Shown here: positions 11,364 through 54,992 of the stretch, one piece after another | How the letters are laid out: each line of letters starts with the position of its first letter | Position numbering within the stretch: position 1 is the stretch's first letter | Assembly: GCA_019241645.1 (NCBI GenBank) | Contig: JAFAWQ010000039.1 | Location: 62,001-126,000 of the forward strand | Reading direction: 5' to 3' | DNA length: 64,000 nucleotides | From: Alphaproteobacteria bacterium | GTDB taxonomy: Bacteria > Pseudomonadota > Alphaproteobacteria > Micropepsales > Micropepsaceae | Position numbers and translations under genes: made by a program | The notes under the pieces: generated by a model | Database searches by the model: none | What the model was told of the DNA's origin: nothing | Seen by the model: only the letters and a program-made list of their open reading frames with translations

Positions 11364-11949
11364 CTAGTTGAAATAAATGCCTGCCGCCTTCCCCACACCT
11401 CGGCCGAAGGTGGAGGAGAGCTGGTAGACGGTAAAGCGGAACGGCGAAGGTAAGCCGCTTGGGAAATCGGCGGTGATTTGAGCAGCGGTGTAGGTGAGCG
11501 AAGGTGAGGATACCGAGTTGAAGGAGCGGATGACATTGGAAAAGCCATCCAGGATTTCCACCTCGTAGCGTTCCGAAGACTCGCTCAGCGGAATCTCGAC
11601 CTGGTCCCAGCCGTCGCTTGCGGGATCGCGGTCGCGGCGCAGCCACGACAGCAACAAATCGCCGGATGCGGAATAGACAGCGCGCCACTGCACAGGCGAC
11701 AGCGGCCGCAAGCCGATGCCTTTGAATTGCAGCGAAATATACTGGTATGCCGGATCGGAAATCGGCTTGCCCTGCGGGCCGTAGAGATAATTGAACGGCA
11801 GCGCGTGTTCGGCCTGGCTCAACCCCAGTTGCATCAATGCTGAATCCAGAAGCACCACGCGTGCACCCGCTGCGAGCGGCGAACGCATCGCCCCTTCCGT
11901 GCCGGCCTGCCCGCGCAGCAAACGTGACAACGTCCATTCACCGGGGTCC
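11364..11949 (-). pseudogene. Frameshifted C-terminal end of the GTA hub protein g15
   Basis: The reading frame upstream of 11943 belongs to the 1135-aa g15 ORF. Past a CCCC run the homologous protein continues in the +1 frame as GEWTLSRLLRGQAGTEGAM, the block expected directly after EWEVLQFANA in GTA gp15 proteins. About 195 codons follow, ending GKAAGIYFN. Unless frameshifting or a sequencing error explains it, this part is not translated with the rest. Confidence 0.8.
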
Positions 11950-15345: not shown

Positions 15346-15353
15346 GTGGGTTC

Positions 15354-15492
15354 CTTCACCTCCCCCGTTGTGGGGAGGTCGATTTGCTGAAGCGCAGCGA
15401 AAGCAAATCGGGTGGGGGCGATGGCGGTTTCAACATCGTCCCCCGCCCGCATCGCTTCGCTTTGCGACCTCCCCGCAAAGGGGGAGGTGATC
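15354..15492. repeat. GC-rich palindromic repeat, copy 2
   Basis: The left end CACCTCCCCCGTTGTGGGGAGGTCG and right end CGACCTCCCCGCAAAGGGGGAGGTG are inverted copies. The interior has GCAAATCGGGTGGGGG. The copy occupies almost all the space between the g15 start and the pseudogene remnant at 15495. Confidence 0.9.
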
Positions 15493-15606
15493 TAAGGCTT
15501 CACGCCGTAGAGCAGGAATGTGTGGACGACTTCAGGATCGCGCGCGCGGGCCTGGTTGATGCCGGTGTCGCCGCCGATGGTGTCGCCGGATTTGTGTTTC
15601 GCCAGT
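15492..15606 (-). pseudogene. Remnant of the 3' end of a TPR gene
   Basis: About 112 bp nearly identical to the last 112 bp of the TPR gene at 16328-17053. The encoded AKHKSGDTIGG and the terminal FLLYGVKP parallel the FLTYGVRP of that gene. Similarity stops abruptly at 15607. The tracked 157-aa ORF covering it is not a gene, because its N-terminal part is the antisense frame of the next exported protein. Confidence 0.8.
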
Positions 15607-15697
15607 GTTGTTAGAAAGGAGCCCGGCTGCAATTCTGTCCGCTCAAAAAGAAATGGCGGCTCGCCGCCGCCATTTCTCGCTTCAAATGCGGACGAAA

Positions 15698-16186
15698 TCA
15701 GTTCTTGTACATGGTATAGGTGCTTTGCCAATTGGCAAGCGAGCTCGCCTGATTCACATACACGTCGGTTCGCACCGTGTGACTGCCGGTCGCGACAGTG
15801 ATGCTGCCCTGACCGTTGCCCGTGACATAGGAGCTGCCGCCGGCTGCAACCGACCCCTGATACGGGCATCCGGGATTGGTATAGGTGCCATCGACATTTG
15901 GACAGATCGCCCAAAGGCCGTCCGGAGTCTGGAGCTGCACCATTTCGGTGACCGCAACGGTACATGGGCCTTTCTTGCAGTTCAGTGTGTGCGAGTCTAT
16001 CGTATTGAATCCGGGATTGAGCGTTCCGCCATTTCCGTTGGCAATCAGCGCGTCCTTCAGCTTGATCGGCGGCGCCACAAAGTGCTGGCCGTTACCCGTT
16101 GGGCTGGTCCGGTCCGCGGCGGATGCCTGCAGGCAAAGCCCACCGGCCAAAGCCGTTCCCATCAATATCGCAATCAGTTTTCCCAT
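15698..16186 (-). CDS. Exported hypothetical protein, 162 aa, inserted between g14 and g15
   Basis: Starting at ATG 16186 (MGKLIAILMG), which has AGGGGA five bases upstream; the tracked start at 16225 lacks support. A signal peptide ends at ASAAD. The mature part has four Cys (LNCKKGPCTV, ICPNV, GCPYQG) and a beta-rich repeat-like end (GSHTVRTDVYVNQ). It is similar in style to the exported protein at 10731. It is flanked by two copies of the same TPR-gene end, which suggests it arrived by a duplication or insertion event. Function unknown. Confidence 0.7.
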   Translation of the reverse strand: MGKLIAILMGTALAGGLCLQASAADRTSPTGNGQHFVAPPIKLKDALIANGNGGTLNPGFNTIDSHTLNCKKGPCTVAVTEMVQLQTPDGLWAICPNVDGTYTNPGCPYQGSVAAGGSSYVTGNGQGSITVATGSHTVRTDVYVNQASSLANWQSTYTMYKN

Positions 16187-16327
16187 CGTAATCCCCTGAG
16201 TTTTCTTACACCCCATCAAACACATGGGTTCAACTTGCTATCATCATTTCGGCCATAGTTGAAGAGTCCCTGGACCGCCTTTTCGAGGGAGCACAGGCAG
16301 TGCCCTTTTGCCCGGTTTGACAGTCCC

Positions 16328-17053
16328 TTAAGGCCTCACGCCGTAAGTCAGGAAGGTGCGGACGATGTCCGGATCGCGCGCGCGGGCCTGGTCGATGTCG
16401 GCGTCGCCGCCGATGGTGTCGCCGGATTTGTGTTTCGCCACGCCGCGCAAATACAGCGCCGAAGCGAGGTTGGGATCGGCGTCCTTGGCTGCGGTGCAAT
16501 CGGCAATGGCGGGCGGGTAGGCGGCGCGACGCAGATCGACGAAGCACCGCGCATCCAGCGCCGCTGCATCGCCGGGCTTCAAGGTGAGTGCCTGGTTGCA
16601 GTCTTCCCACGCGTCGTCGAGATCGCGGCCCGAGGCGGCGCGGGCCCAGCAGCGTCCGCGAAACGCGGCCAGCGATGCGGGCTGCAGCTCGATCATTCTG
16701 CCGAAATCGGCGATGGCGTGGCGATAATCCTCGAGCGCCATCAGCGCGCGGGCGCGATTTTCCAACGCCTCCAGATCGTCCGGCTTGAGGCGCAATGCTT
16801 CGCTCAGATCGCCGACCGCGCTTCCGTACATTTTCGCCTTGAAGTAGGCCCGCCCGCGGTTGAAATAGGCCCAGGCGATTTCCGCGCCCGATCCGGTCGC
16901 GATAATCTCGCTGCACGACGCGATGGCCGCCTCGCCCTCGCCGACCGTGCACAAATCCGTGTCGCGGTTCTGCGCGAACGCCGTACCCGCTGACAACGCA
17001 ACCGCGAGTCCAGCCGACAAAATCCCAATCCGTCGCAGCGCAGAAAACAACAT
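16328..17053 (-). CDS. Exported TPR-repeat protein A
   Basis: The start ATG 17053 (MLFSALRRIG) has GGAG five bases upstream; the tracked start eight codons earlier runs into the upstream gene's stop. A signal peptide (ending near GTAFAQN) is followed by about five tetratricopeptide repeats (AWAYFNRGRAYFKAKMYGSAV, ALENRARALMALEDYRHAI, and so on), a scaffold for protein contacts in the periplasm. It lies 2 bp after TPR protein B and probably in one transcript with g14. These genes are not part of the classical GTA set. Confidence 0.85.
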   Translation of the reverse strand: MLFSALRRIGILSAGLAVALSAGTAFAQNRDTDLCTVGEGEAAIASCSEIIATGSGAEIAWAYFNRGRAYFKAKMYGSAVGDLSEALRLKPDDLEALENRARALMALEDYRHAIADFGRMIELQPASLAAFRGRCWARAASGRDLDDAWEDCNQALTLKPGDAAALDARCFVDLRRAAYPPAIADCTAAKDADPNLASALYLRGVAKHKSGDTIGGDADIDQARARDPDIVRTFLTYGVRP

Positions 17054-17055
17054 CG

Positions 17056-17808
17056 TTACTCCTTGATGCCCCACGAGCCCAGCACATCCGCCGTGCGTGG
17101 ACTGAGGCGAATGGCGGCGGCCATGTCTTGTTTACCAGCGTCTTCCTGACCCGCATGGCGCCTGGCCAGTCCGCGCATGTAGAGAGCCCCGGCGCTCTCC
17201 GGCTTTTCCTTCAGCACAGCATCGCAATCCGCGACGGCGTCCGCATAGCGGCCCAGCCGGTAGAGCACGAAGCAGCGCGCCTCGCGCGCGTTGGTATCTT
17301 CCGGCTTCAGCCGGATGGCCTCGTCGCATTCGCTGAGCGCTCGCGCCAGGGGTTTGCCCCGCACGACCCGCACCCAGCAGAGATTCGTCAAAGCCTCTCT
17401 CTCCGGCTTGCCCTTGGCGGCCTCCGCGTAATCGGCGAGTGCCTTTTCATGATCGCCCGTATCTTCGTAGGCATCGCCGCGCATTTCGTAGATGGCGGTC
17501 GGATCGTGCATCCAGCCGAGAGCATGGGTGTAATCGTCGATCGCGCTTTGCGGATCGCCGTCGAAATGCTGCAGCAGGCCGCGCGCGAACAGCATGCAGG
17601 CCTGCGCCCGGGTCGGCGCATGCGGATTGCGCAGCATGCGCGTCAACTCCGCGATGCGGTAGTGAATGGGCGGCGCCAGCACCGGATAGGCAAAGCAACG
17701 ATCGGGACTGAACGCCGATGACGGAGGCGCGACGAAGATCGCAATCGCACACAGCATTGCGGCACCGCCGACGCGAACGCTTCCGGCCATTGCCCACTTT
17801 AACGCCAT
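17056..17808 (-). CDS. Exported TPR-repeat protein B
   Basis: A 250-aa protein with a signal peptide (about residues 1-33). TPR units follow (YTHALGWMHDPTAIYEMRG, EKALADYAEAAKGKPERE, CDEAIRLKPEDTNAREARC). Its ATG directly abuts the TGA of the NlpC/P60 gene g14, which implies translational coupling to the GTA operon. It is paralogous to TPR protein A downstream. A role in envelope passage or assembly of particles would be speculative. Confidence 0.85.
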   Translation of the reverse strand: MALKWAMAGSVRVGGAAMLCAIAIFVAPPSSAFSPDRCFAYPVLAPPIHYRIAELTRMLRNPHAPTRAQACMLFARGLLQHFDGDPQSAIDDYTHALGWMHDPTAIYEMRGDAYEDTGDHEKALADYAEAAKGKPEREALTNLCWVRVVRGKPLARALSECDEAIRLKPEDTNAREARCFVLYRLGRYADAVADCDAVLKEKPESAGALYMRGLARRHAGQEDAGKQDMAAAIRLSPRTADVLGSWGIKE

Positions 17809-18546
17809 TCAAGCGGAGATGCGAAAGGCAAAGGCGAGCTTGCCGCGCCAGAACGGCGAAAGCGGCTCCTCGCTCACCCGCTTGTTCTGGCGAGAATGGA
17901 TCAAGGCTAGATTCCCTCCCTTGAAAAGGGAGGGTCGGATCGCGCAGCGATCCGGGGAGGGATCATTCTCCGGTGCTGGCAGCATGACCCCCACCCGATC
18001 CGCTCTGCGGATCGACCTCCCCCTTTCCGGGGGAGGAAACGAAGCCACAATCCCGCAATGTTTGGCCGGGCCGTGCGGCAGCATGCGGAACAGCACGATG
18101 TCGCCCGGGCCGATGTCTTTCGCGGAAATCTCCGCCGCATGGCGCCGGAGCGCCATATAGAAGGTTTCGACCCCGGTGGCCTCTGCCCAGTCCAGCGAAT
18201 AGGGCGGAACATCCTCGGGCTCCTCGCCGCGCAACTCGCGCCAGATGCCACGCAGCAAACCCAGACAATCACATCCGATGCCTTTGAGACTTGCCTGATG
18301 CACATACGGCGTCCCGATCCAGGATCGCGCGATGGCAACGATTTGGGATTCCCTCTCCCCCTCGGGGGGAGAGGGATACAGGGTGAGGGGGATGGCGGAA
18401 TTCAGAACACAGAAGTCGGAAGTCAGAACCGGATGCGAATAAGGAGCGGTTTCGATTTCTGATTTCTGACTTCTGATTTCCGATACCCCCTCACCCCTGC
18501 CCCTCTCCCCCATAGGGGGCGAGGGGAATCGTTGTTCAGTTTCCAT
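17809..18546 (-). CDS. GTA gp14 NlpC/P60 cell-wall peptidase carrying two in-frame repeat insertions
   Basis: The catalytic Cys lies in GCDCLGLLRGIW and the His in AKHCGIVAS, as in GTA gp14 NlpC/P60 peptidases that act on peptidoglycan at the tail tip. The product is 245 aa, whereas the family is near 140-150. The excess is explained by two translated palindromic repeats: about 62 codons after METE at the N-terminus and about 44 codons between HCGIVAS and LALIHS. The start ATG overlaps the TGA of g13 (ATGGAAACTGA), so it is probably ancestral. Whether the inserted loops are tolerated is unknown. Confidence 0.88.
   Translation of the reverse strand: METEQRFPSPPMGERGRGEGVSEIRSQKSEIETAPYSHPVLTSDFCVLNSAIPLTLYPSPPEGERESQIVAIARSWIGTPYVHQASLKGIGCDCLGLLRGIWRELRGEEPEDVPPYSLDWAEATGVETFYMALRRHAAEISAKDIGPGDIVLFRMLPHGPAKHCGIVASFPPPERGRSIRRADRVGVMLPAPENDPSPDRCAIRPSLFKGGNLALIHSRQNKRVSEEPLSPFWRGKLAFAFRISA
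17909..18043. repeat. GC-rich palindromic repeat, copy 3, inside the g14 coding region
   Basis: The ends CCCTCCCTTGAAAAGGGAGGG and CCTCCCCCTTTCCGGGGGAGG are each hairpins, with CCACCCGATCC inside. The copy is translated in frame as FPPPERGRSIRR ... PSLFKGGN within the peptidase. Confidence 0.9.
18345..18532. repeat. GC-rich palindromic repeat, copy 4, coding for the g14 N-terminus
   Basis: The ends CCCTCTCCCCCTCGGGGGGAGAGGG and CCCCTCTCCCCCATAGGGGGCGAGGGG flank an AT-richer core with repeated TTCTGATTTCTGA-type pyrimidine stretches. It is read in frame directly after METE of the peptidase. It is a different sub-type from the AGGTCGATTTGC copies. Confidence 0.85.
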
Positions 18547-19429
18547 AGCGGCTGCCTCCGTCGAGGAGTTGCGATTGCGCCGGGTAGGACGTCACCGCGT
18601 CGTTGCCGGGCATGTAGGGGAAGCCGCGGAAGTTCAGGGTATTGGCGAACTTCGCCTTGCAGGTGCCGAACTGCTTGTCGCAGCCGGCGCTGACGATGAA
18701 GGAATCGCCGATCGCGATCGCTTCGCTCATCCGCTGCCAGAGTTCGAGACTGACCCGCGTACCGACAACGCCGTGGCGCTTCACTTCGATGGCACGCCCC
18801 GCATTGGCGCCGCTCGTCCAGCTGAGCTTGCCGCCGGCGAACCATTGATCCGCGAAATCGTCGAGCCCGCTTGCCGTGAAGCGCCGCTGATCGGTGATCG
18901 TGGCCACGCTTCCAACGCCGCTATACAGCGGATTGCTCAGGTCGATGGTGCAGCGCGCATCGCCGAGATCGGCATCGCAGGAATATCCGTAGGCGCGGCC
19001 GACCGGCTGATTGAGCCGATGCGCCAGGCCGCGCACCTCCGCCTGGAACGCGGTGCGCCCGCGCTTCACCTCGCCGAGATTACCTTTGCGCATCAGCACG
19101 CGCTGATCCGGCGCCGCCCAATTTACCCGCCAGATTTCGATGCTCGCATTGTCGTAGAGGCCAGCGGCAAGATCGGCTTCGCCGATGGCGCCGGACGACA
19201 GCGCGCCAAGCACGGTGAGATTGTCCACCGCCAGGCCGAGCGTGGACTGCACCTCGCTGGCGGTGAAGCCGCTCACCGCTTCGTAAGTCACGCCATCGAA
19301 CACCACCGCGACATCATGATCGGTGAAGCCAAGCGTCGTCGCATCGCCGCGCACGATCTTCCAGCACCAGCACAAGGTGGTGGTGCCGGAGTTCAGGTGT
19401 GATTGGAGAGCGGGTGAGATGGATTTCAC
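18536..19429 (-). CDS. GTA gp13, DUF2163 tail tip protein
   Basis: A 297-aa protein matching the DUF2163 family of GTA and siphophage distal tail proteins. The N-terminal part reads CWKIVRGDATTLGFTDHD, then GFTASEVQSTLGLAVDN. A C-terminal Cys-containing segment (YSCDADLGDARC, CDKQFGTCKAKF, NTLNFRGFPYMPG) is typical of gp13. It starts with GTG in a GTGA overlap with g12, and its stop overlaps the g14 start, so the tail genes are coupled. In the Rhodobacter GTA this protein binds an iron-sulfur-type cluster near the tail tip; the Cys residues here fit that. Confidence 0.93.
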   Translation of the reverse strand: MKSISPALQSHLNSGTTTLCWCWKIVRGDATTLGFTDHDVAVVFDGVTYEAVSGFTASEVQSTLGLAVDNLTVLGALSSGAIGEADLAAGLYDNASIEIWRVNWAAPDQRVLMRKGNLGEVKRGRTAFQAEVRGLAHRLNQPVGRAYGYSCDADLGDARCTIDLSNPLYSGVGSVATITDQRRFTASGLDDFADQWFAGGKLSWTSGANAGRAIEVKRHGVVGTRVSLELWQRMSEAIAIGDSFIVSAGCDKQFGTCKAKFANTLNFRGFPYMPGNDAVTSYPAQSQLLDGGSRYGN

Positions 19430-20049
19430 AGCCGAATCTCCACCAGCGGGATCGAGGGGATTTCACCGGCGGCGAAGTTCGAGAGATTGATCGAAAGAGA
19501 ATCCGTGTCGAATCGCACCGGTGTGTCGAATTCGTAACCGGCGGTGATGGCGGCGCCGGCAGCAGGCGCGGAGGCAAACGCAATCAGGCCCGTTGTATCG
19601 TCGATTGTGATACCCGAGGTTTGCTCCAGGCCCGCGACGGCGATACGCACCGTTCCGGCGACTGGTTTCTTGATGGTACGCACCGAACTGGAGGGGCCCG
19701 AGATGTAGGTCTTGATCAGCTGAAACTGCGTTGTTGTTCCATCGCCGGTGCCGATGTTCTGATCGAGCGGCGCCAAGGCCGCGTTCGGCGCGCAGGATTT
19801 GAAATCGGCGAAATCCCTGAAGCGAAAGCCATAGAGGCGCCCCAGGCGAGCTTCGAAGAATGCAATGACCGCGTGCAGATCGTCCAGAGTTTTCACGCCG
19901 TAGCCCACATCGTAATGCCTTCGCGAATTGGCCCACACGGCGTTGCGCTCCTCGAAGCCGGAGCCGAGCGTGACGATTTCCGTCTTGCGCTCCGGCCCGC
20001 CGCTCGAGTGAAAGGCAATGGCGGTGGGGAATTGAATTTCGTGGAACAT
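19426..20049 (-). CDS. GTA gp12, DUF2460 distal tail protein
   Basis: I start at ATG 20049 (MFHEIQFPTAIAFHSSGG), giving 207 aa; the tracked 399-aa ORF only adds antisense of g11. The N-terminal pattern (FPTAIAFHSSGGPERKTEIVTLGSGFEERNAVW) and FEARLGRLYGFRFRDFADFK are characteristic of TIGR02217/DUF2460. The TGATG overlap with g11 upstream and GTGA overlap with g13 downstream show tight coupling. It forms the distal tail ring. Confidence 0.93.
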   Translation of the reverse strand: MFHEIQFPTAIAFHSSGGPERKTEIVTLGSGFEERNAVWANSRRHYDVGYGVKTLDDLHAVIAFFEARLGRLYGFRFRDFADFKSCAPNAALAPLDQNIGTGDGTTTQFQLIKTYISGPSSSVRTIKKPVAGTVRIAVAGLEQTSGITIDDTTGLIAFASAPAAGAAITAGYEFDTPVRFDTDSLSINLSNFAAGEIPSIPLVEIRL

Positions 20050-20612
20050 CACAAATTCCTTTGGCCGCGGGCTAGCGCGCGGGACAGCATGGCGGCTACT
20101 TGCGTTTCCGATTTGAGAAAGCTCTGCGCGTCGCGCGCGTTCACGTTGAGCACGATCTGCGGCCGTGCCGACGCACCTACCGCACCGTTCGGCACGATCG
20201 AGCCCACGCCTTGCGGCACGAACAGCTCCGGCCCTTGCTCGCCGACGAGATAAGCAAGCCCTGCATCCACCGGTCCACCTGCCGCGCGCGCGCCGCCCAC
20301 AGGCAACAGCGAGGATATCAGCGACGACAGCAAACCTTCGATCGGCTTCTCGATGAACTGCCTGACCGCGATGCGATCGAAATCCGCCAGGATCGCATTG
20401 ACCAGCGAATCCATCGACGCTTTGCCGGAAAGCACGGCGCGCGCAATGGTGTCGGCGATGGCGTTGAAGCTGCCGCTGACTGCGCGCTCGATTTGCGTGG
20501 CGCTGTCGGTGACCGGCCCTTTGGCGAACGCATCGAGCGATTTCGCCACGGCGGCCAGCGCGGTATCCACGCCGGAGAAATCGGCGTTTACGTTTACGGT
20601 TGCGCTCGCCAT
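20049..20612 (-). CDS. GTA gp11, short tail tape measure protein
   Basis: A 187-aa protein similar to the C-terminal region of lambda-type tape measure proteins: ADFDRIAVRQFIEKPIEGLLSSL, AAGGPVDAGLAYLVGEQGPELFVPQGVGSIVPNG. The short length fits the short tails of GTA particles. The start ATG overlaps the end of g10.1. It sets tail length and is ejected with DNA. Confidence 0.9.
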   Translation of the reverse strand: MASATVNVNADFSGVDTALAAVAKSLDAFAKGPVTDSATQIERAVSGSFNAIADTIARAVLSGKASMDSLVNAILADFDRIAVRQFIEKPIEGLLSSLISSLLPVGGARAAGGPVDAGLAYLVGEQGPELFVPQGVGSIVPNGAVGASARPQIVLNVNARDAQSFLKSETQVAAMLSRALARGQRNL

Positions 20613-20764
20613 GGTGGCACCTCATCCGGATAAAGCTGCATCAGATGTTCGAGATCGGCGCGCGAGAGCGGAGCAGCGCGGTGCGAGCGGCGGGCGAATC
20701 CGTTCACCGCTGCGCGCCACTCGCCGAGCGACATGGCCCAGAACACCTCCGGTGTTATCCGCAT
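20594..20764 (-). CDS. GTA g10.1 (rcc01693-type tail assembly chaperone), N-terminally truncated
   Basis: This 56-aa ORF is below the track cutoff. It reads MRITPEVFWAMSLGEWRAAVNG ... LEHLMQLYPDEVPPWRAQP, the typical end of g10.1 proteins found between g10 and the tape measure. In the same frame just upstream the DNA still encodes KPFGWDRILELAFG, the expected N-terminus. No start codon precedes it, because a palindromic repeat has replaced that DNA. Translation can only begin at the GTG/ATG overlapping the g10 stop. Function may be impaired. Confidence 0.8.
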   Translation of the reverse strand: MRITPEVFWAMSLGEWRAAVNGFARRSHRAAPLSRADLEHLMQLYPDEVPPWRAQP

Positions 20765-21171
20765 CACGCCGAAGGCGAGTTCGAGGATGCGGTCCCAGCC
20801 AAAGGGCTTGCGTGCGCCCCCTCCACCGCGCTTTGCGCGGTCCCCCTCCCCGGCTGCGCAGGGGAGGATCCCTCTCGCTTCAGCCCGACAGCATCGAAGG
20901 CATCGGTGATGGCGCCGATTAAGGTGCCGAGGCCGGTGTCGAGCTTCAGCACTTCGGCCGGCGCGATGTCATGTCCGGCGCCGCGCAACAATGCCGCCGC
21001 AACCATCGCCAGATCCATGGTGCCAAGGGATTTCAGCTTGCCGGCGATTTCGCTCAAGCTGGAAACGCCTAGGCCGTTTTCGATTTCGGCCAGCGCGCCG
21101 AGCGTCAGCCGCATGACATAGCGTTCGGTTCCGGCAAGAAATTCGCTCTCGCCCCGGATTTTGTTGGGCAT
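20764..21171 (-). CDS. GTA gp10-family tail assembly protein with repeat-derived C-terminus
   Basis: The start ATG 21171 (MPNKIRGESEFLAGTERYV) has AAGGAG seven bases upstream. Residues 1 to about 100 match the GTA-gp10 family (LTLGALAEIENGLGVSSLSEIAGKL ... LLRGAGHDIAPAEVLKLD), a tail assembly chaperone-like protein. After GLKREG the sequence (SSPAQPGRGTAQSAVEGA ...) is a translated palindromic repeat followed by out-of-frame g10.1 DNA. The natural C-terminus has therefore been replaced by about 35 foreign residues. Confidence 0.88.
   Translation of the reverse strand: MPNKIRGESEFLAGTERYVMRLTLGALAEIENGLGVSSLSEIAGKLKSLGTMDLAMVAAALLRGAGHDIAPAEVLKLDTGLGTLIGAITDAFDAVGLKREGSSPAQPGRGTAQSAVEGAHASPLAGTASSNSPSA
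20815..20876. repeat. Partial palindromic repeat, copy 5, in the 3' end of g10
   Basis: CCCCCTCCACCGCGCTTTGCGCGGTCCCCCTCCCCGGCTGCGCAGGGGAGG contains two hairpins (CCGCGC/GCGCGG and CTCCCC/GGGGAG). It is a shorter sub-type than the 140-bp copies and lies wholly inside the g10 reading frame. Confidence 0.75.
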
Positions 21172-21191
21172 TGTGAAACTCCTTCTCTCGA

Positions 21192-21608
21192 TCAAAGCGC
21201 CGTAAACGTCAGCGCGCCGGCGGAATGCAGCGACAGCGACAGCTTTACTTCGCCATCGTGCGGGCCTTCGTATTGCAGGGAGGCGATCTGGAACGGTCCG
21301 GCGATGGTTCCGAAGTTCGGAACGATCACCTGGAAGTTCGGCGTTGTCTGATTGAAGAATGCGCTACGCAGACTTTCGTCGCTCGCCGCATCCTTGAACA
21401 CACCGGAGCCGGAGAAGCTTGCGGCTTTCACACCAGCGCCCGCCAGCAATTCGCGCCAGTGATTGGCCGAATCGGCATTGGTGACATCGACGGTGGTGGA
21501 ATTGAACGACAAGGTCGTGGTGCGCAGGCCGGCGACGGTGGTGAAAGTCTCGGGCATCCCGCCATCGCCGATCTTGACGAGCAGGTCGCGCCCCTTTTGT
21601 GCGGACAT
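21192..21608 (-). CDS. GTA gp9, major tail tube protein (TP901-1 family)
   Basis: A 138-aa protein beginning MSAQKGRDLLVKIGDG and containing the family pattern LRTTTLSFNSTTVDVTNADS, GAGVKAASFSGSGVFKD and EVKLSLSLHSAGALTFTAL. It polymerises into the tail tube. It lies between g8 and g10 as in the Rhodobacter GTA, with intact length and no repeat insertion. Confidence 0.93.
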   Translation of the reverse strand: MSAQKGRDLLVKIGDGGMPETFTTVAGLRTTTLSFNSTTVDVTNADSANHWRELLAGAGVKAASFSGSGVFKDAASDESLRSAFFNQTTPNFQVIVPNFGTIAGPFQIASLQYEGPHDGEVKLSLSLHSAGALTFTAL

Positions 21609-21619
21609 GTTGTTTCTCC

Positions 21620-22021
21620 TTAGGGTTCGGTGACGGCGCGGAAGGTGAGCCGCGCGCGAAAGGTCTGGCCGTCGGGCTCGCGGCTGAAGCCAGTCGCGAG
21701 ATGGCGGATATCGATCAGGGTGGCGCCGCTGATCGCGAGCACAGCATTGTGCAGCGTGGCGCGGACGATTTCGGCGATCTGCTTGGCTTCCTCGTGCCCT
21801 GCGCTTCGCGACCAGACATCAATTTGAACCGCATGCTCGCTGCCGGTTTCGGTCGCGGTGCTCCAGTCGCTTTCGCCACCATCGCCCAGCACCACATAGG
21901 GAAAGACGCTTTCGCGCGGCACGAAATCGAACAGGCAAGTGCCGATCAGCGCCTGCAGTTCACTGCTGGCCGAAAGCGCGGCGAAGATCGCCTGCTGCAG
22001 AGCGAAAGAGATGCCGCTCAT
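21620..22021 (-). CDS. GTA gp8, DUF3168 tail terminator-like protein
   Basis: A 133-aa protein of the DUF3168 family (LQALIGTCLFDFVPRESVFPYVVLGDG ... IDVWSRSAGHEEAKQIAEIVRATL). It probably forms the tail-terminator ring. The ATGA overlap with the g7 stop shows translational coupling. Confidence 0.9.
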   Translation of the reverse strand: MSGISFALQQAIFAALSASSELQALIGTCLFDFVPRESVFPYVVLGDGGESDWSTATETGSEHAVQIDVWSRSAGHEEAKQIAEIVRATLHNAVLAISGATLIDIRHLATGFSREPDGQTFRARLTFRAVTEP

Positions 22022-22332
22022 GCGATTTTCTCCGTCATCAGAGTGAGGAATTGGGCTTGGGGGCCATCGTCGAGCACCGCATGAATGGTGAACACGCGTC
22101 CGCCGTCGGTCGCGCGCATGCCGGCGGCTACGTCCGTGCGGCGGCGAATGGTGATGCGATAGCGAACGCGCGCTTCGCTGGCATCGGGACCGAACACATC
22201 GGCGCCGCTGACTGGTTCGATCTCAGCCCATACGGTGGCGAGCGTGCTCCAGCCCGCGCTGTATCCGCCGCCGCCGTCGGGCAAGAGCGTCTGCGCTTCC
22301 AGCGTGACGCGGCGGTTCAGTGAAGAGAGCAT
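22018..22332 (-). CDS. GTA gp7, phage head-tail adaptor / head closure protein
   Basis: A 104-aa SPP1 gp16-type head closure protein: MLSSLNRRVTLEAQ, then STLATVWAEIEPVSG, then VRYRITIRRRTDVAAGMRA. It joins the connector to the tail. The upstream space to g6 is filled by a palindromic repeat, unlike the tight junction with g8 downstream. Confidence 0.9.
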   Translation of the reverse strand: MLSSLNRRVTLEAQTLLPDGGGGYSAGWSTLATVWAEIEPVSGADVFGPDASEARVRYRITIRRRTDVAAGMRATDGGRVFTIHAVLDDGPQAQFLTLMTEKIA

Positions 22333-22354
22333 GATGTTTCTCCAACGCGCTGCC

Positions 22355-22503
22355 TAACCCCCTCCCCTCGCGGGAGGGGGCAAATGCTTTGAGCGAAGCG
22401 AAAAGTATTTGGGGGAGGGGAGAACGAGGCTTTGCCCCTCCCCCAAGCCTCACGCGCGTGTGCACGTTCGGCTTGCCCCCTCCCGCGAGGGGAGGGGGTA
22501 GTA
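22355..22503. repeat. GC-rich palindromic repeat, copy 6
   Basis: The ends CCCCCTCCCCTCGCGGGAGGGGG and CCCCCTCCCGCGAGGGGAGGGGG are inverted copies, so the whole ~149 bp can fold on itself. The interior has ATTTGGGGGAGGGG and CCCCTCCCCCAA. It lies between g6 and g7. Confidence 0.9.
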
Positions 22504-22512
22504 AGCGCATCG

Positions 22513-23076
22513 CTAGAGATGCAAGACTCGGAACGGCGACAGCAGCGCTAGAATGTCCAGCGGCAATTCAGCCGGCGCTTCGCCGCGGTGTTCGTACAGG
22601 AAGGCAGTCAGTTCCAAGATGGCGTCGCGAATTCCTGCCGGAACATCGGTCGCGGCGCTGCCGTAACCGGCCGTAAAGGCCACGGCCACCGCATTCATCG
22701 CGCGCAGGTTGATCGGCGGCAGCACCGTCGATTTCAATGCAAGCCGCGCGGGCGCGGAGGCTGCATCCACCTGGTAGGCCGCTGGATCGATCACGCTGGC
22801 GCTATCGTTCGGCGCGTACACCGTGACCGAACTCACGCCCTGCAGTGGCGGCAGCGCGATTTCAATTGGGGCGCAGAGCGGCCAGCCATCCAGCCACAAA
22901 ATCCAGCTTTGCGTGTTGAGCGCGCGGCCGGTGTGCCATTCGGCGCGGGCGCGCGCGGCGATGATGAGGCGGGCGATCAGCGCGTCGTCGTCGCTTGTAT
23001 CGACCTTCAGATGCAGCTTGGCATCGGCCAGAGTCACCGGCTCGACCGCCGGCGGGGTGATGAGTTGGAGGGACAT
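22513..23076 (-). CDS. GTA gp6, head-tail connector protein
   Basis: A 187-aa protein of the phage gp6-like connector family. The N-terminus LITPPAVEPVTLADAKLHLKVD and the helical ALIARLIIAARARAEWHTGR block are diagnostic. It binds the portal and links head to tail. Palindromic repeats flank both ends. Confidence 0.92.
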   Translation of the reverse strand: MSLQLITPPAVEPVTLADAKLHLKVDTSDDDALIARLIIAARARAEWHTGRALNTQSWILWLDGWPLCAPIEIALPPLQGVSSVTVYAPNDSASVIDPAAYQVDAASAPARLALKSTVLPPINLRAMNAVAVAFTAGYGSAATDVPAGIRDAILELTAFLYEHRGEAPAELPLDILALLSPFRVLHL

Positions 23077-23085
23077 AATTCAATC

Positions 23086-23224
23086 CTTCACCTCCCCCAT
23101 TGTGGGGAGGTCGATTTGCTTGAGCGAAAACGAAAGCAAATCGGGTGGGGGGCGATGCTTGTTTTAGGACTGTCCCCCCACCCGCGTCGCTGGGCTCCGC
23201 GACCTCCCCACAAGGGGCAAGTGA
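23086..23224. repeat. GC-rich palindromic repeat, copy 7
   Basis: The left end CACCTCCCCCATTGTGGGGAGGTCGATTTGC is matched by CGACCTCCCCACAAGGGG on the right. The core motif AAAGCAAATCGGGTGGGG is shared with copies 2 and 8. It lies between the capsid gene stop and the g6 start. Confidence 0.92.
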
Positions 23225-23228
23225 TGGG

Positions 23229-24485
23229 CTAGCTCACCGCGAACTTCATCAGCTTGATGGCCTCGAAATTCTGCACGCCGCCGCCCACGCGCTTCGTCGT
23301 GTAGAACAGCACGTAAGGCTTGGCCGAATACGGATCGCGCAGCACGCGAATGCCCACGCGATCCACCACCAGATAACCGCGGGCGAAATCGCCGAAGGCA
23401 ATCGAGTAGGAATTCGTAGCGATGTCCGGCATGTCTTCGGCGACCGCCACCGGGAAGCCGAACAGCGTTGCCGGCTGGCCTGCCGCAAGTCCCGGCGACC
23501 AGATGTAGTTGCCGGTCGAGTCCTTGAACTTGCGGATGGCCGCCTCAACCTTGCGATTCATCACCCAGCTCGCGTTGGCGCGATAAGCCTGCTTCGGAGC
23601 ATATGCCAGATCGAGCAGAGCATCGCTGGGATTGGAGACGGGAAACCCGCCTGCGGAGCCGGAAGGAATGTAGCCGAGATTGCCCCAGCTCCAGCTTCCC
23701 TCCGCCACGTTGGTGTAGCTGAGCAGGCCTTTGGGCTGCGTGGTGCCGTTGCCCGTGATGAACGCGGCACCTTCCTGCACGCCGAAAACGATCTGCACTT
23801 CGGAAGCGAGCCAGGTTTCGATATCCACCTGCGCATCGTCCAGCAATGCCTGCGTCGCGGCCGGCATGGCGTAAAGCTCCATCGCCGGGAAATCGATGGC
23901 CGCGAGATTGGGCGTGCTGGTTTGCGGCCGCGCGTCGGTTTCCGCAACCCAGCCGCTACCCGCGTCGTTGGTGCTGATCGGCTTGCGGTACACATTGCCG
24001 CCGATCTGCTGCACCGTGGCGATGGCGCGGATGGGCGAGACCTTGGCCAACACGCGGTCGATAGTCTGCTCGATCTCCAGCGGCACAACGTAACCGCCGT
24101 CCGGGTTGGAGCCGATGCTCATTGCCTTCAGCTCCAGCGTGTTGAAGCCGCTCGCATCGCCCTTGCGCACGTATGTGTCGAACGCCGCCTTGCGCTCGCG
24201 CGCGGTGCGATCGCTGGCGGCTTTGGTTTCGCCGCCGAGCTGCGGCCGCGCCGCCGACAGCATCAGCTCATCGAGCAGCCGCTTCTGCGTGTCCAGCGCC
24301 TTGTTGATGCGCTCGACCTTTTCTTCGGTGACGACATCGGCGCCGCGCTTCTCCAACTGCGCCAGGCGATTGTCGTTTGCTTCCTTGAAGCTTTCGAAGG
24401 CGTGCAGGAATTCTCCGAACGCCTCCTTGATTTCGCGGCTCTGCGCCGCGTCGCGCGTTTCCAGCGCCTTGGTTTCCAGTTCCAT
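23229..24485 (-). CDS. GTA gp5, HK97-type major capsid protein
   Basis: A 418-aa HK97-fold capsid protein. The N-terminal about 120 residues are a coiled-coil scaffold (delta) domain (AFGEFLHAFESFKEANDNRLAQLEKRG) removed by the prohead protease. The coat domain follows (MSIGSNPDGGYVVPLEIEQ ... VSPIRAIATVQQIGGNVYRKP ... SWVMNRKVEAAIRKFKDSTGNYIW). Length and domains look intact. Confidence 0.96.
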   Translation of the reverse strand: MELETKALETRDAAQSREIKEAFGEFLHAFESFKEANDNRLAQLEKRGADVVTEEKVERINKALDTQKRLLDELMLSAARPQLGGETKAASDRTARERKAAFDTYVRKGDASGFNTLELKAMSIGSNPDGGYVVPLEIEQTIDRVLAKVSPIRAIATVQQIGGNVYRKPISTNDAGSGWVAETDARPQTSTPNLAAIDFPAMELYAMPAATQALLDDAQVDIETWLASEVQIVFGVQEGAAFITGNGTTQPKGLLSYTNVAEGSWSWGNLGYIPSGSAGGFPVSNPSDALLDLAYAPKQAYRANASWVMNRKVEAAIRKFKDSTGNYIWSPGLAAGQPATLFGFPVAVAEDMPDIATNSYSIAFGDFARGYLVVDRVGIRVLRDPYSAKPYVLFYTTKRVGGGVQNFEAIKLMKFAVS

Positions 24486-24512
24486 GTGTGTGGTTCTCCT
24501 TGGGGGTTGAAA

Positions 24513-25190
24513 TCACCTCCCCTGTTGTGGGGAGGTCGATTTGCTTGAGCAGAGCGAAAGCAAATCGGGTGGGCGGCTGCGCGTGCCTTTGCACCTTCCC
24601 CCATCCGGCTCGCTTCGCTTGCCGACCTCCCCACAAAGGGGGAGGTGAATTTTTGGGCGAACGGCTTCAGCCGCGAGCCGAATGTGTTGCGCCGTGACGC
24701 TTTTCGCGCCGATGGCTGTGACGGCGCTTCCTTCCAACAGCGGGAAGGTCACGACCGAAACTTCCCAAAGCTCGACTTCGATGAGCGTGCGCGCGCCGGT
24801 TGCCGGATCGCGGCGCGCGCTTTTCGTCTTGAATCCGATGGAGAGGCCGTCGAGCGCGCCGTCGTTCAGCAGCGCCAGCACGTCGCGGCCACGCTCGATA
24901 TCGGTGGTGAGGCGGCCGCGCACATAAAGCCCGCGCGCATCCTCCCGGATCTCCGCCCACACGCCGATGGGCTCATGCGCGAAATGCTGGTAGAGCATGC
25001 GAATGCGCGAGAGGCCGCGGCTGCGCAGCGATTTGGCGAAAGCACCGGGCGCCATCACGTCGCCCGCGCCATCGGGGACCCCAAACAGCGAGGCGTAGCC
25101 TTCGAACTCACCGCGACTGAGAGTGCTAAGCGCGGCCGGCGCGTCGAGACGCGCCAGCCTGCGCCGCAAATGCATGACTTGCGGGGGCAT
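24513..25190 (-). CDS. GTA gp4, HK97 prohead protease with repeat-derived C-terminus
   Basis: Starting at ATG 25190 (MPPQVMHLRRRLA); the tracked upstream start adds only repeat DNA. The peptidase S78 core is intact (GEFEGYASLFGVPDGAGDVMAPGAFAKSL; MLYQHFAHEPIGVW; DGLSIGFKTKSARRD; ELWEVSVVTFPLL), with the His and Ser of the catalytic site visible. After about AEAVRPK the last 45 codons (IHLPLCGEVGKR ... STSPQQGR) are a translated palindromic repeat whose last bases supply the TGA stop. The enzyme processes the capsid precursor. Confidence 0.92.
   Translation of the reverse strand: MPPQVMHLRRRLARLDAPAALSTLSRGEFEGYASLFGVPDGAGDVMAPGAFAKSLRSRGLSRIRMLYQHFAHEPIGVWAEIREDARGLYVRGRLTTDIERGRDVLALLNDGALDGLSIGFKTKSARRDPATGARTLIEVELWEVSVVTFPLLEGSAVTAIGAKSVTAQHIRLAAEAVRPKIHLPLCGEVGKRSEPDGGRCKGTRSRPPDLLSLCSSKSTSPQQGR
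24517..24653. repeat. GC-rich palindromic repeat, copy 8, encoding the protease C-terminus
   Basis: The ends CACCTCCCCTGTTGTGGGGAGGTCGATTTGC and CGACCTCCCCACAAAGGGGGAGGTG are inverted copies. The minus-strand reading ends GGGAGGTGA, so the repeat edge itself is the stop codon of the protease gene. Confidence 0.92.
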
Positions 25191-25211
25191 GATGATTCTC
25201 TGTGTGTTGGA

Positions 25212-25238
25212 TTCACCTCCCCACAAAGAGGGAGGTCG
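25212..25238. repeat. Partial palindromic repeat, copy 9 (single hairpin)
   Basis: TCACCTCCCCACAAAGAGGGAGGTCGAG is one end of the repeat only, between the small membrane-protein gene and the prohead protease start. It may be a deletion product of a full copy. Confidence 0.7.
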
Positions 25239-25240
25239 AG

Positions 25241-25525
25241 TTATTGCGCGTGCGACTGCGAGCTCGTTCCCTGCATGCGGTCGAGCTTGCCTTCGATGCG
25301 AGACAGCTGATCTTTCATCTCGCGCACCTGTTCTCCCAGCACGGCAACTTGCGCAATCGCCGCCTGCTCGCTCTGCACAGTGTGCTCAAGCACACTGATG
25401 CGGTTGGCGGCGGAGCCTGCCCAGAACAGCGCGCCGGCCGTTTGCAACAAAAAAGCCGCCACGAGGGCGGCCGGAACTTTCTTGGCATCCAGCGCCGGCT
25501 GGATGTGGTCGCCGATGATACTCAT
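25241..25525 (-). CDS. Small membrane-anchored coiled-coil protein between portal and protease
   Basis: A 94-aa protein with one membrane span (VPAALVAAFLLQTAGALFWAGSA). A coiled-coil tail follows (ISVLEHTVQSEQAAIAQVAVLGEQVREMKDQLSRIEGKLDRM). Its position matches the small gene 3.5 region of GTA clusters, but a membrane anchor there is unusual. It lies 3 bp downstream of the portal gene. It could be a second holin/spanin-like factor or a head-assembly anchor; both are guesses. Confidence 0.7.
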   Translation of the reverse strand: MSIIGDHIQPALDAKKVPAALVAAFLLQTAGALFWAGSAANRISVLEHTVQSEQAAIAQVAVLGEQVREMKDQLSRIEGKLDRMQGTSSQSHAQ

Positions 25526-25528
25526 TGC

Positions 25529-26719
25529 TCACTCCATTGTATCCCCGTCGTCGAGCGGGCCGTAGCCGGCGGCGGCGCGCTTTTCGTTGAGCGTTAGAAA
25601 CGAAGCGCCGGTCAACTTCTCCCAGGTGGCTTCGCGCGCTTCGCTGAGCGCGGGCACCGCATCGATGTCGTAATCGATGCGCAACGCCTCGCCGAATTTC
25701 GGCTTGAGCCAGCGCGTGAGCTGCGCGGCTGTGCGCGCCACCAGCGGCAGCACCGTCTGCCGCCACAGCGCCAGATTCGCCTGCGCGTAATTCGAGTAGG
25801 TATTGTCGCCGGGAATGCCGAGCAGCATCGGCGGCACGCCGAAGGCGAGCGCGATCTCGCGCGCCGCCACGTCGCGCGTGTTGGCGAAATCGAGATCGGC
25901 CGGCGAGTGGCTCATGCTCTGCCATTCGAGCCCGCCTTCCAGCACCATCGGCCGGCCGGCATTGATGGCGCCCTGGTAGCCGGTTTCGAGCTCGTCCTTC
26001 AGCCGCCGGAACTGATCGTCGGTCAGGTTGGGCGCGCCGTCCGGGCCTTTGTAGACGAGCGCGCCGGAAGGCCGCGCCGCATTGTCGAGCAGCGCCTTCG
26101 TCCACGATGCGCCCTGGTTGTGCACGTCGATGGCGTTGAGCGCGGGCTCGATCGGCGACAATCCGTAATGATCGTCGAGGGGATGAAACAGGCTGCCGTG
26201 CAGCAGCGGAAGGAACCCGCTGGCATCGCGGCCGATGCGTGCGCTTCGCCCGTTGACGCAGTATTCGTACGCCAGCGGCCAGCCGCCGGCGCTTTCGATG
26301 GCCTTCACGCGATCCGGACGCAGCACATGCAGCTCGCGCACCTCGCCCTGAATGGTGAGTGCCTGCAGATACGAATTGCCGGCGCATTGCAGAAAGGCAT
26401 ACCAGCGCTCGAACAAGGTCGCGCCGCTTTCCCGTGCATTGGGCGATCGCAGCAATGCGAGCAATGGATGCTGCTCCAGCTCGGTCTCGCCTTCGTACAG
26501 CAGAAACGGCACACTGGCTGCGGCCTCGGCGATCATTCGCACGCAGCGATAGACCACGGCGTTTTTCATCACGCCGTTTCGCGCCAGGCTGGCGTAATCG
26601 CGCGAACTCCAGCGCGGGCCGCCGATGAGTTGCAACGCGATCCACGGCGGCGTGGATTTGGTTTCCGGCACGCAGGTTTGCGCCCGCCGCTCCATCGAGC
26701 GGAAGAGTCGTTCGAACAT
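25529..26719 (-). CDS. GTA gp3, HK97-family portal protein
   Basis: The start ATG 26719 (MFERLFRSMERRA) has AGGA upstream; the tracked longer start is translated repeat. The 396-aa product has portal signatures: NAVVYRCVRMIAEAAASVPF, LFERWYAFLQCAGNSYLQAL, PIEPALNAIDVHNQGASWTKALLDNAARPSGAL and IALAFGVPPMLLGIPGDNTYSN. It forms the dodecameric DNA entry ring. No internal disruption seen. Confidence 0.96.
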   Translation of the reverse strand: MFERLFRSMERRAQTCVPETKSTPPWIALQLIGGPRWSSRDYASLARNGVMKNAVVYRCVRMIAEAAASVPFLLYEGETELEQHPLLALLRSPNARESGATLFERWYAFLQCAGNSYLQALTIQGEVRELHVLRPDRVKAIESAGGWPLAYEYCVNGRSARIGRDASGFLPLLHGSLFHPLDDHYGLSPIEPALNAIDVHNQGASWTKALLDNAARPSGALVYKGPDGAPNLTDDQFRRLKDELETGYQGAINAGRPMVLEGGLEWQSMSHSPADLDFANTRDVAAREIALAFGVPPMLLGIPGDNTYSNYAQANLALWRQTVLPLVARTAAQLTRWLKPKFGEALRIDYDIDAVPALSEAREATWEKLTGASFLTLNEKRAAAGYGPLDDGDTME

Positions 26720-26728
26720 GTGGTTCCT

Positions 26729-26873
26729 TTCACCTCCCCCAACGTGGGGAGGTCGAAGTGGCGAGCGAAGCGAGACACTTCGGGTGGGGGGCGAAGGGAG
26801 CATACTCCCCCACCCGATCCATTTCCGCTTCGCTCAAATGGATCGACCTCCCCACGTCGGGGGAGGTGAATCA
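26729..26873. repeat. GC-rich palindromic repeat, copy 10
   Basis: The ends CACCTCCCCCAACGTGGGGAGGTCG and CGACCTCCCCACGTCGGGGGAGGTG are perfect long inverted repeats. The interior shows GGGTGGGGGG and CCCCCACCCGATCC. It begins at the terminase stop codon and ends just before the portal ribosome-binding site. Confidence 0.92.
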
Positions 26874-28160
26874 GTAGCGTACCTTCGGAACTCCCTGGCG
26901 CTGCTGCGGGAACAGTTCCGTCAGGGCCCAAACCAGCGCATCGAGGCGGTCGGGAGATTTGCCGGAGCCGTCATACTGGCAGAGCTGATCCTCCAGTTGC
27001 GGAAACACGCCGGCGTGATGCACGCGGCCATTTTCGTACATTGCCGACACCGGCTCGGCGCGTAGCAGCTTGCCTTTGGAGGCGTGCACTTTCCTGACAT
27101 TCATGTTGGAATGCGCGTTGAACAACGTGCTCTTCACCATGTCGCCGCCTTGGTTGGCTTCGGCCACCACGCAATCGGCTTCGTACTGTTCGTAGGCATC
27201 GGCCACGCGATCGGCCCATTGCTTGGCGCTGAGCCGTTCGCGCGTGAAGTCGGCGAGCACGTAGGCGTCATCTTCTACCCTGCCGGCAACTACGATGCCG
27301 CATGCGCCTGTCTGACTCGCCGGAGGATCGACGCCGACGACAACGCGCGTGCAGTGCGGCTCCTGCCTCACCCGCGCGCTTTCGATCCATTCGCGGCGCC
27401 ACAACGCGCCTTCCACATCCTCGATGATTTCGCCATCCAGCTCCTGGCGGCCCAATCGCGTTTTGCCGTAAGTTTTCTTCATCGTGGCGATGAACGCCTT
27501 CGGCAGATTGGCCTTGTTCTCATACGTCGTGCTTTTGGTCACAATGCAATCGGACGACTTTGCGAGGTCGAGCAGCGCCGGAATCGGCCGAGGCGTGGTG
27601 GTGAGCATCAGCCTGGGATCCTCTCCCAGCCGCAATCCCATGCGCAGCATGTCGAGCGCATTCTGCGCCTCCGGCCATTTGCAGAACTCATCGCCCCAGG
27701 CGAGATCGAACTGATAGCCGCGAAGAGAATCCGGCTCGTCGGCGCTCATGACGCAGGCTTCGGCACCGTTGGCCGGCCAGCGCACACGGCGCAAGGATGG
27801 CTCATATTCCGCCCCGGGACTGACAGAGAGCAATCCCGCCGGGCCTTCGATCATCACCATGCGCGCATCGCCATGGGTGGCGGCAATGAGCGCCACCCGT
27901 TTGGCGCGGCCGCTGCGAACGTGCTCCGCCACCCATTCGGCGCCGGCGCGGGTTTTTCCCGCCCCGCGTCCGCCAAGAAACAACCAGATGCGCCAGTCGC
28001 CTTCTGGCTCATATTGTTCATCTCGCGCCCAGAATGACCATGTTCCATGCAGCTCTTTGGCTTGCGCTTCAGTCAGACCCCGGAAGAGTTCGTCTCTCTC
28101 GTTCAATTGTAACGATGCGAGTGACCTCACGCTGAAGCGCTTCCAAGGCAGTTCCGTCAT
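26871..28160 (-). CDS. GTA gp2, terminase large subunit
   Basis: A 429-aa DNA packaging motor. The ATPase Walker A is FLGGRGAGKTRAGAEW, the Walker B region is YQFDLAWGDEFCKW, and the coupling motif is LTTTPRP. The C-terminal nuclease domain has VVGVDPPASQTGACGIVVAG and a late acidic cluster. It packages DNA into heads; in GTAs this is random host DNA by headful packaging. The start overlaps the upstream small gene by 92 bp. Confidence 0.96.
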   Translation of the reverse strand: MTELPWKRFSVRSLASLQLNERDELFRGLTEAQAKELHGTWSFWARDEQYEPEGDWRIWLFLGGRGAGKTRAGAEWVAEHVRSGRAKRVALIAATHGDARMVMIEGPAGLLSVSPGAEYEPSLRRVRWPANGAEACVMSADEPDSLRGYQFDLAWGDEFCKWPEAQNALDMLRMGLRLGEDPRLMLTTTPRPIPALLDLAKSSDCIVTKSTTYENKANLPKAFIATMKKTYGKTRLGRQELDGEIIEDVEGALWRREWIESARVRQEPHCTRVVVGVDPPASQTGACGIVVAGRVEDDAYVLADFTRERLSAKQWADRVADAYEQYEADCVVAEANQGGDMVKSTLFNAHSNMNVRKVHASKGKLLRAEPVSAMYENGRVHHAGVFPQLEDQLCQYDGSGKSPDRLDALVWALTELFPQQRQGVPKVRY

Positions 28161-28475: not shown

Positions 28476-29165
28476 TTAGATCGGAACGTTGGTCAGCTGC
28501 GAAACGACCGGCGTTTCCTTGCCGATCCATTCGTACTGAAAGTGATCGCCCTGCGTGACGTTCAGCACCAGGCGCGGATGAAACACCGCGAGGTTCACGC
28601 CGCCATCGTACCGCACACTGTCGAAGCAGAGACCGTTCGAGCCGCTTTTGCGCAGCGCCACCCCATAGGGCTGCGATTGCGCATAGCTGCTCGGCGAATA
28701 TAGCGCCGGCAATTCTTTGCGCATCCCTCGCAGATCGTGAAACTCGTCGTCCACATCCGCGCGCAGCTCGCGCATCTGGATCGTCTGGTAATAACGCGCC
28801 GCCGAATGCGAAAGCCGGCGGGTGTGGTGATACACCGTCTCCACAATCGCCGTCTGCAGGTCGAATGAGCAGTACCAGCAGCCCAACGTGCCGTCGGTGA
28901 ATCGTCCGCCTTGCTCATCGGCATGCAGCCAGGCGGCCATGACGATGTTCGCGTGCGGAATGCCGACCACCCATTCGCTTTCCGGCAGCTCGTGCAATCG
29001 CTCCAGCGGAACACGCAGCCGATCGTTGGTCATCATCTCCAGCTCATACGCCGCCTGGATGTCGGCCGGCACGCTCACGCGATCGAACACGCCGATGGTC
29101 GGCCAGCGGCTGGCGATCAGTCGGCGCGTGGCTTGCGTGATGTGCGCCAGTTTCGGCGGCGTCAC
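28476..29165 (-). CDS. RES-domain toxin of a RES-Xre toxin-antitoxin pair
   Basis: A 229-aa RES protein. The motif GSNGLCFDSVRYDGGVNLAVF matches the RES Ser/Arg block, and FDRVSVPADIQAAYELEMMTND carries the N-terminal active-site region. RES toxins are ADP-ribosyltransferase-fold enzymes that degrade NAD+ or modify targets and arrest growth. It overlaps the antitoxin stop by 4 bp (ATGA). It sits just upstream of the GTA-type cluster on the same strand. Confidence 0.88.
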   Translation of the reverse strand: MTPPKLAHITQATRRLIASRWPTIGVFDRVSVPADIQAAYELEMMTNDRLRVPLERLHELPESEWVVGIPHANIVMAAWLHADEQGGRFTDGTLGCWYCSFDLQTAIVETVYHHTRRLSHSAARYYQTIQMRELRADVDDEFHDLRGMRKELPALYSPSSYAQSQPYGVALRKSGSNGLCFDSVRYDGGVNLAVFHPRLVLNVTQGDHFQYEWIGKETPVVSQLTNVPI

Positions 29166-29593
29166 CGTACGCCGCGCCAGGCATCAAGGTAGCGCCGCGC
29201 GGCGTAGAGATCTTCGATGCCGCCGCGCAGCATGCGCGCCAGCGGCGAGAAGCCACCGAACACGGCCTCCGTGTTGGCGCTTTTGAGCCAGCGCTTGCCG
29301 CCATCGCCATCGGCGAACAAGAGCGCCATGCCCTTGTAGATGCCCATCACCAGCGACACGCGCTCCAGCTGATCGCGCGACAGCGCCGCGACCTGCCCGG
29401 CTTTCCAGTTGTGCAACGACGACTTCGAAATCCCGCCCAGCAGGGTTCGCTGCTGCTCGGTGGTCAGGCCCCAGTCATCGGCGATATTGAAAAAGGTGCG
29501 CAGTCCCGGCCCGGTGAGCCGTGTGCGATCCGCCAGACTATCGAGGGAACTTCGCGGCGGCTGCCATTTCACCGCTGCTTCGGCAAAGCCCAT
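29162..29593 (-). CDS. Xre/MbcA/ParS-type antitoxin
   Basis: Starting at ATG 29593 (MGFAEAAVKWQPP), with GGAG nine bases upstream; the tracked start and an intermediate ATG fall inside the operator repeats. The 143-aa product has an Xre-like HTH (WGLTTEQQRTLLGGISKSSLHNWKAG). A C-terminal toxin-binding domain (SVVMGIYKGMALLF-like; NTEAVFGGFSPLARMLRGGIEDLYAARRYLDAWRG) follows. It neutralises the RES toxin and represses its own promoter. Confidence 0.9.
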   Translation of the reverse strand: MGFAEAAVKWQPPRSSLDSLADRTRLTGPGLRTFFNIADDWGLTTEQQRTLLGGISKSSLHNWKAGQVAALSRDQLERVSLVMGIYKGMALLFADGDGGKRWLKSANTEAVFGGFSPLARMLRGGIEDLYAARRYLDAWRGVR

Positions 29594-54373: not shown

Positions 54374-54416
54374 CCCCTCCCCGCATCGCTAACGATGGAT
54401 TTTCGATAAGCCGCAG

Positions 54417-54860: not shown

Positions 54861-54992
54861 GTCACTGTCCCTCGAAGAGTCAGATTGCACCTGGGCGAAC
54901 CCTAGAGTGCAAAGCGCCGTGGGTTCAAGCCACGCGGGCCGCCGCCATGCGAACAGGGTGCATGGTGACGGCGCGCGTACGGGACTTGGCTG

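Follow-up and report, generated by a model that had tools for sequence, protein, structure and literature searches.

A palindromic repeat encodes the C-terminal tail and stop codon of a prohead protease gene in an RcGTA-type gene cluster

Within a 64,000-nt stretch of an alphaproteobacterial genome (the window; genome G000, 2.87 Mb in 53 contigs), the gene for an HK97-type prohead protease of family S78 (g4) ends inside an interspersed palindromic repeat. This 136-bp repeat, element D (positions 24513 to 24648, minus strand), forms the 3' end of the gene, contributing 44 sense codons (24516 to 24647) and the TGA stop (24513 to 24515), which is the final three bases of the terminal GGAGGTGA of the element. 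The g4 gene is the exception in this repeat family, as other copies lie almost always just behind a gene's own stop. The history that we consider probable is that the element inserted behind the g4 stop and that this stop was lost later, leaving the edge TGA to catch translation. An earlier note, made from the sequence, had described the last 45 or so residues of the protease as one 137-bp repeat that supplies the TGA and leaves the catalytic core intact; that observation was real and correctly read, with residue count and length off by no more than 1, while its interpretation was partly supported.

The host cluster (11938 to 28160, minus strand, like the genes g2 to g15 and the repeat elements described within it) carries structural genes g2 to g15 in the order terminase (26871 to 28160), portal, g3.5, protease g4, capsid g5, connectors, tail tube, GTA-gp10, tape measure, an Rcc01695-family protein, and g15, a protein of 1,135 residues with a GTA_TIM domain (E value of 5e-149). 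This RcGTA-type order, together with the gene transfer agent (GTA)-specific families GTA_TIM, Rcc01698_C, DUF2460/TIGR02217 (the Rcc01695 family), and GTA-gp10, identifies the cluster as a predicted gene transfer agent of the RcGTA type. Three more full copies of the element D family (at 15356, 23088, and 26730) occupy its gene junctions: element F between g2 and g3 (26730 to 26869; g2 stop 2 nt before it), element C between g5 and g6 (23088 to 23226; g5 stop 3 nt before it), and element A just upstream of g15 (15356 to 15490), whose ATG lies 11 nt after the element. Element E, a single hairpin of the same family, lies between g3.5 and g4 (25212 to 25237; g3.5 stop 4 nt before it), and element B, with the architecture of D and another sequence (CCCCCTCCCC type), lies between g6 and g7 (22357 to 22499). 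A palindrome of the CCCTCTCCCCC type at the g13/g14 junction (18351 to 18525) extends into the called start of g14; because that start (METEQRFPSPPMGERGRGEG; region 18351 to 18546) falls inside the palindrome, the true start is probably further downstream.

Several neighboring features were recorded in passing. Between g14 and g15 (15698 to 17682) lie two TPR genes and a gene for a small, secreted-looking protein. Right beside element A, 112 nt from the 3' end of a TPR gene are present in two copies (15493 to 15604 and 16329 to 16440; 89% identical, 836 nt apart). Upstream of the terminase gene is a putative toxin-antitoxin-like gene pair, of the RES/Xre kind by eye (28476 to 29593), and divergent direct repeats with a period of about 153 nt occupy positions 53200 to 56000.

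The g4 open reading frame (24513 to 25190) encodes 225 amino acids counted from the ATG and ends in HLPLCGEVGKRSEPDGGRCKGTRSRPPDLLSLCSSKSTSPQQGR-stop. Its core matches the S78 profiles PF04586 and TIGR01543 (E value of 1e-31 for each), and H69, S117, and E143, which we take to be the catalytic residues of S78 proteases, are invariant across 28 aligned sequences; the core of the protease is intact. Beyond it, the repeat-encoded residues (HLPLCG...SPQQGR) include the peptides SRPPDLLSLCSSK and STSPQQGR. Where the window protein reads VTAIG..IRLAAEAVRPK|IHLPLC, relatives end at VTAIG..LRRASARLRA*; in insert-free relatives the stop falls at the position of AVRPK, just ahead of the element, which begins within 1 to 2 codons of that site. 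Because the relatives' proteases end where element D starts, the tail is foreign to g4 and made of repeat, and it would presumably be produced as part of the protein. The comparison of C termini proposed in the earlier note thus found homologs that lack the tail. The sole locus with an identical tail is an IMG/VR contig (L214) matching the window over 6,735 bp, perhaps not an independent sample, since it may come from the same metagenome or the same reads. The capsid gene g5 (23229 to 24485; PF05065, TIGR01554) starts 27 nt past the g4 stop and has its own AAGGAG 10 nt before its ATG, a likelier Shine-Dalgarno site than the GGAGG of the element.

Element D has inverted arms of 26 nt, of which 24 are matched, and is laid out as an outer stem, two lateral hairpins, and a central stem (CGGGTGGG/CCCAYCCG), with a predicted folding energy of −85 to −88 kcal/mol; the four full window copies range from −84 to −109 kcal/mol. 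BLAST within the same genome places the repeat far beyond chance, the best other copies being 77 to 82% identical with E values down to 6e-31. Alignment of 25 full copies from three genomes gave the consensus TCACCTCCCC-loop-GGGGAGGTCG-hairpin-CGGGTGGGGG-spacer-CCCCCACCCG-hairpin-CGACCTCCCC-loop-GGGGGAGGTGA, with termini TCACCTCC/GGAGGTGA and a length of 111 to 147 bp. The outer and central stems hardly vary, and the lateral hairpins change in sequence among copies while keeping their pairing: 37 of 49 are distinct, and the average of 4.7 contiguous pairs from the base drops to 2.7 if the two halves are taken from different copies. The C-rich/G-rich/G-rich order of the TMECO intrastrand triplex motif (PMC4666352) recurs across the family, with CCTCCCC, GGGGAGG, and GGTGGGG in 42 of 50 half-elements. 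The second loop, however, is a hairpin of roughly 10 to 35 nt, compared to 3 nt in TMECO, and a triplex is a candidate structure suggested by the arrangement of the sequence.

This family is narrowly distributed. Wide spread across alphaproteobacteria was rejected, as only 5 of the 289 genomes sampled contained the strict motif, which hardly occurs outside this genus and one other family. An Rfam search of the window gave no match for the element (one tRNA alone reached the gathering score), and a search of a plasmid collection in distant mode gave none either. In size and arms the element resembles a MITE (70 to 300 bp, terminal inverted repeats of 15 to 30 bp, no coding gene), but none of the 25 full copies has the target-site duplication of a MITE at 3 nt or more, and none has a GTAG or CGTC tetranucleotide at the foot of a 20- to 40-bp palindrome. 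The Y1_Tnp (RAYT) transposase profile PF01797, which is found in some congeners, had no match in G000 or G022, and a RAYT-driven REP was rejected because the window genome lacks a Y1 transposase. The family probably represents lineage-restricted palindromic repeats that are, or once were, mobile.

Where family copies sit relative to genes was determined for 66 copies in four congeneric genomes (60 loci from G034, G022, and G002, plus those of G000). In 49, the upstream gene stops 1 to 28 nt before the element (median of 7 nt); no upstream stop lies inside any element, and g4 alone uses the edge TGA. Among large inverted repeats of all families in four genomes, upstream stops fell before the element in 52 cases, inside it in 8, straddling its near edge in 2, just beyond it in 4, and at its distal edge in 1, with 10 elements wholly inside a called open reading frame. 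The repeats do end in TGA (53 of 56 full-copy strands, counting both strands), as the earlier note had assumed, but its suggestion that this makes them tolerable at gene ends is not supported, with 49 stops ahead of the element against one at the edge. Nor is element D's family a three-frame stop, a function rejected because the edge TGA serves one frame and the interiors are stop-poor: 89 of 168 frames through the element are open, compared to 73% closed in mononucleotide shuffles. Since read-through would meet the edge TGA in 43 of 168 frame and copy combinations, about 1 in 4, no special design is needed, and the TGA of g4 is a lucky catch rather than the reason for the repeat's position. 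The idea that repeats bring stops fails as a rule for the element D family and holds at the g4-g5 junction, mostly through other repeats built of heptamers.

That junction was compared at 41 loci, some closely related and hence not all independent events. Palindromic repeats of at least five unrelated families occur in about 21 of the 41 (three weaker 10- to 11-bp repeats were left out of this count), and the distance from the conserved TFPL motif to the g5 ATG is 54 to 138 nt without an element and 126 to 271 nt with one. In the nearest relatives the junction varies, with a heptamer repeat in L215 (82% identical core), another G+C-rich palindrome in L050 (79%), and no insert in L051 (78%). 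Heptamer repeats of the CGAATAG/GGCAGTAG kind occur in about 11 loci, with g4 ending on one of the first units (-KRVANSE*, -KRIANGE*), and with a unit of 7 nt, TAG comes up in each of the three frames over about 21 nt. Heptamer palindromes (CGAATAG, GGCAGTAG, GAGTAGT) supplying the g4 stop were noted at L010/L058, L021, L022, L023, L056, L215 to L218, L222, L225, L226, and L233, and genome G035 has such palindromes at several GTA junctions. In L052, an unrelated element (CCGGGATGA/CCCGGGATGAC type) gives g4 its stop at a far-edge TGA, as in the window; in L224 and L012, an element of the CCTCCCCC type lies in the g4 frame, and the stop falls just past it; and in L050 (10519 to 10795), g4 crosses a different palindrome and then runs 71 nt into g5 out of frame. 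The assembly of genome G012 (L026/L117) breaks g4 in two with an in-frame stop and a change of frame; this copy may be a pseudogene or contain a sequencing error. One junction thus offers a natural series: no repeat, a repeat behind the stop, a stop near the start of the repeat, a stop at its far end, and no stop supplied.

Sister copies follow intact stops at a distance of a few bases, so the most parsimonious history places stop loss after insertion. The element would first have sat a few bases behind g4's own stop, which a substitution, a small indel, or an imprecise insertion would then have removed. Translation would then run into the repeat, which is open in that frame, until the terminal GGAGGTGA provided the TGA, leaving a 44-residue tail on an otherwise normal protease. 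Such a tail may be tolerated because the core ends before it, g5 has its own start 27 nt on, and GTA genes apparently tolerate junction insertions. This order of events is probable, although no strain with an intact stop ahead of the same element was found that would set it apart from direct insertion over the stop. Direct insertion into the g4 stop, abolishing it at once so that only the frame reaching the edge TGA survived, would fit the start of the element within 1 to 2 codons of the relatives' stop site. It is unlikely, as every other copy has an undamaged upstream stop 1 to 28 nt away, and read-through survives without an edge stop in L050, L012, and L224.

Doubts about the tail itself carry less weight. 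With the host assembly in 53 contigs and one boundary substitution being enough, a single base error or a binning artefact could have removed the g4 stop; we regard this as very improbable given the identical IMG/VR contig (though possibly built from the same reads) and the same kind of read-through in other relatives. A selected function for the tail within the protease is hardly credible: beyond its presence in an open frame nothing speaks for it, homologs lack it, its composition is that of the repeat, and an AlphaFold model from the 28 sequences had a mean pLDDT of 42.6, too low to reveal any tail fold. The explanation of insertion and later stop loss goes together with a tail that likely has no conserved function and is probably neutral.

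A different reading concerns the repeat ends, which could be selected as portable stop/start hinges: GGAGGTGA combines TGA with a Shine-Dalgarno sequence, so that insertion between codirectional genes would keep both working. The 16S rRNA 3' end is TGGATCACCTCC in four congeners (in G000 itself the tail was searched for and not found, probably being missing from the assembly), and GGAGGTGA, its exact complement, is a perfect Shine-Dalgarno sequence. In six copies a called gene starts 3 to 7 nt beyond the element, too close for any Shine-Dalgarno site other than the element's GGAGG; these are MAQLKSS.. in L175, L160, L178, and L184, and in two congeners (L139 and L188) a gene that starts 4 nt beyond the repeat and that we take, by eye from its N terminus, to be fmt. 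The element end thus apparently serves several downstream genes. Against these six copies, and the TGA on 53 of 56 strands, stand use of the TGA half by one gene out of 50, starts scattered over many other distances (as far as 115 nt), and a gene caller that slightly favors starts with a Shine-Dalgarno site; selected hinges are rather unlikely.

Stops supplied by repeats are already known from REPs and MITEs, and g4 adds a clean example to them. With their termini, GTAG REPs reportedly often provide flanking ORFs with a stop codon (PMC3733652, Di Nocera et al. 2013), and GTAG/CGTC REPs, like element D, are palindromic and intergenic and mostly follow the 3' end of the preceding gene by less than 20 bp. 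Element D differs in its 136-bp four-stem form, in having no GTAG/CGTC tag at the stem foot, in placing its TGA inside a Shine-Dalgarno-like GGAGGTGA, and in a genome where no Y1/RAYT transposase was found. Rickettsia palindromic elements, as cited in that paper, are likewise read in frame within genes thought functional, but lie inside ORFs, whereas element D is at a C terminus and supplies the stop. QMITE1 and QMITE2 of Coxiella also sit at gene 3' ends, and QMITE2 adds 33 repeat-coded residues to enhC in one strain, while in another the stop lies just before the same element (PMC5896051). Although the sequence is unrelated and the QMITE stop is found just past the element and not in its last triplet, enhC offers a close parallel to the history proposed for g4. 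Escherichia coli REPs within 15 nt of stop codons lower translation (PMC12306157), and the stop distance of the sister copies (median of 7 nt) is within that range; their sequence is unrelated, however, and a ribosome translating g4 would pass through the element.

GTA gene junctions show an enrichment of palindromic repeats from unrelated families. In four genomes picked for long contigs around the GTA cluster, large inverted repeats occurred at 17 of 63 codirectional GTA junctions compared to 26 of 687 elsewhere (odds ratio of 9.4, Fisher P value of 5e-9; per-genome P values of 0.0004 to 0.046), against a background outside the cluster of about 448 kb (G000), 385 kb (G028), 183 kb (G022), and 180 kb (G035). 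Some selection bias remains in this comparison, because a g4-g5 repeat had already been seen in G028, G035, and the window genome. The repeat families at these junctions differ between genomes. The cause may be relaxed selection, the operon being silent most of the time, or a role in translation; in wild-type Caulobacter, GTA genes account for <0.1% of mRNA reads (PMC9632790). The fullest version of the second idea, in which GTA clusters of the genus are preferential homes for repeats of several unrelated families that act as stop-plus-Shine-Dalgarno or three-frame-stop spacers setting termination and reinitiation between structural genes, with the g4 copy having taken over the stop completely, we consider quite unlikely. 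The g4 case shows how interspersed palindromes rewrite protein ends. Of greater interest is the pattern across junctions, which deserves a wider survey; if it holds in more genera, why domesticated phage operons gather repeats would become a testable question.
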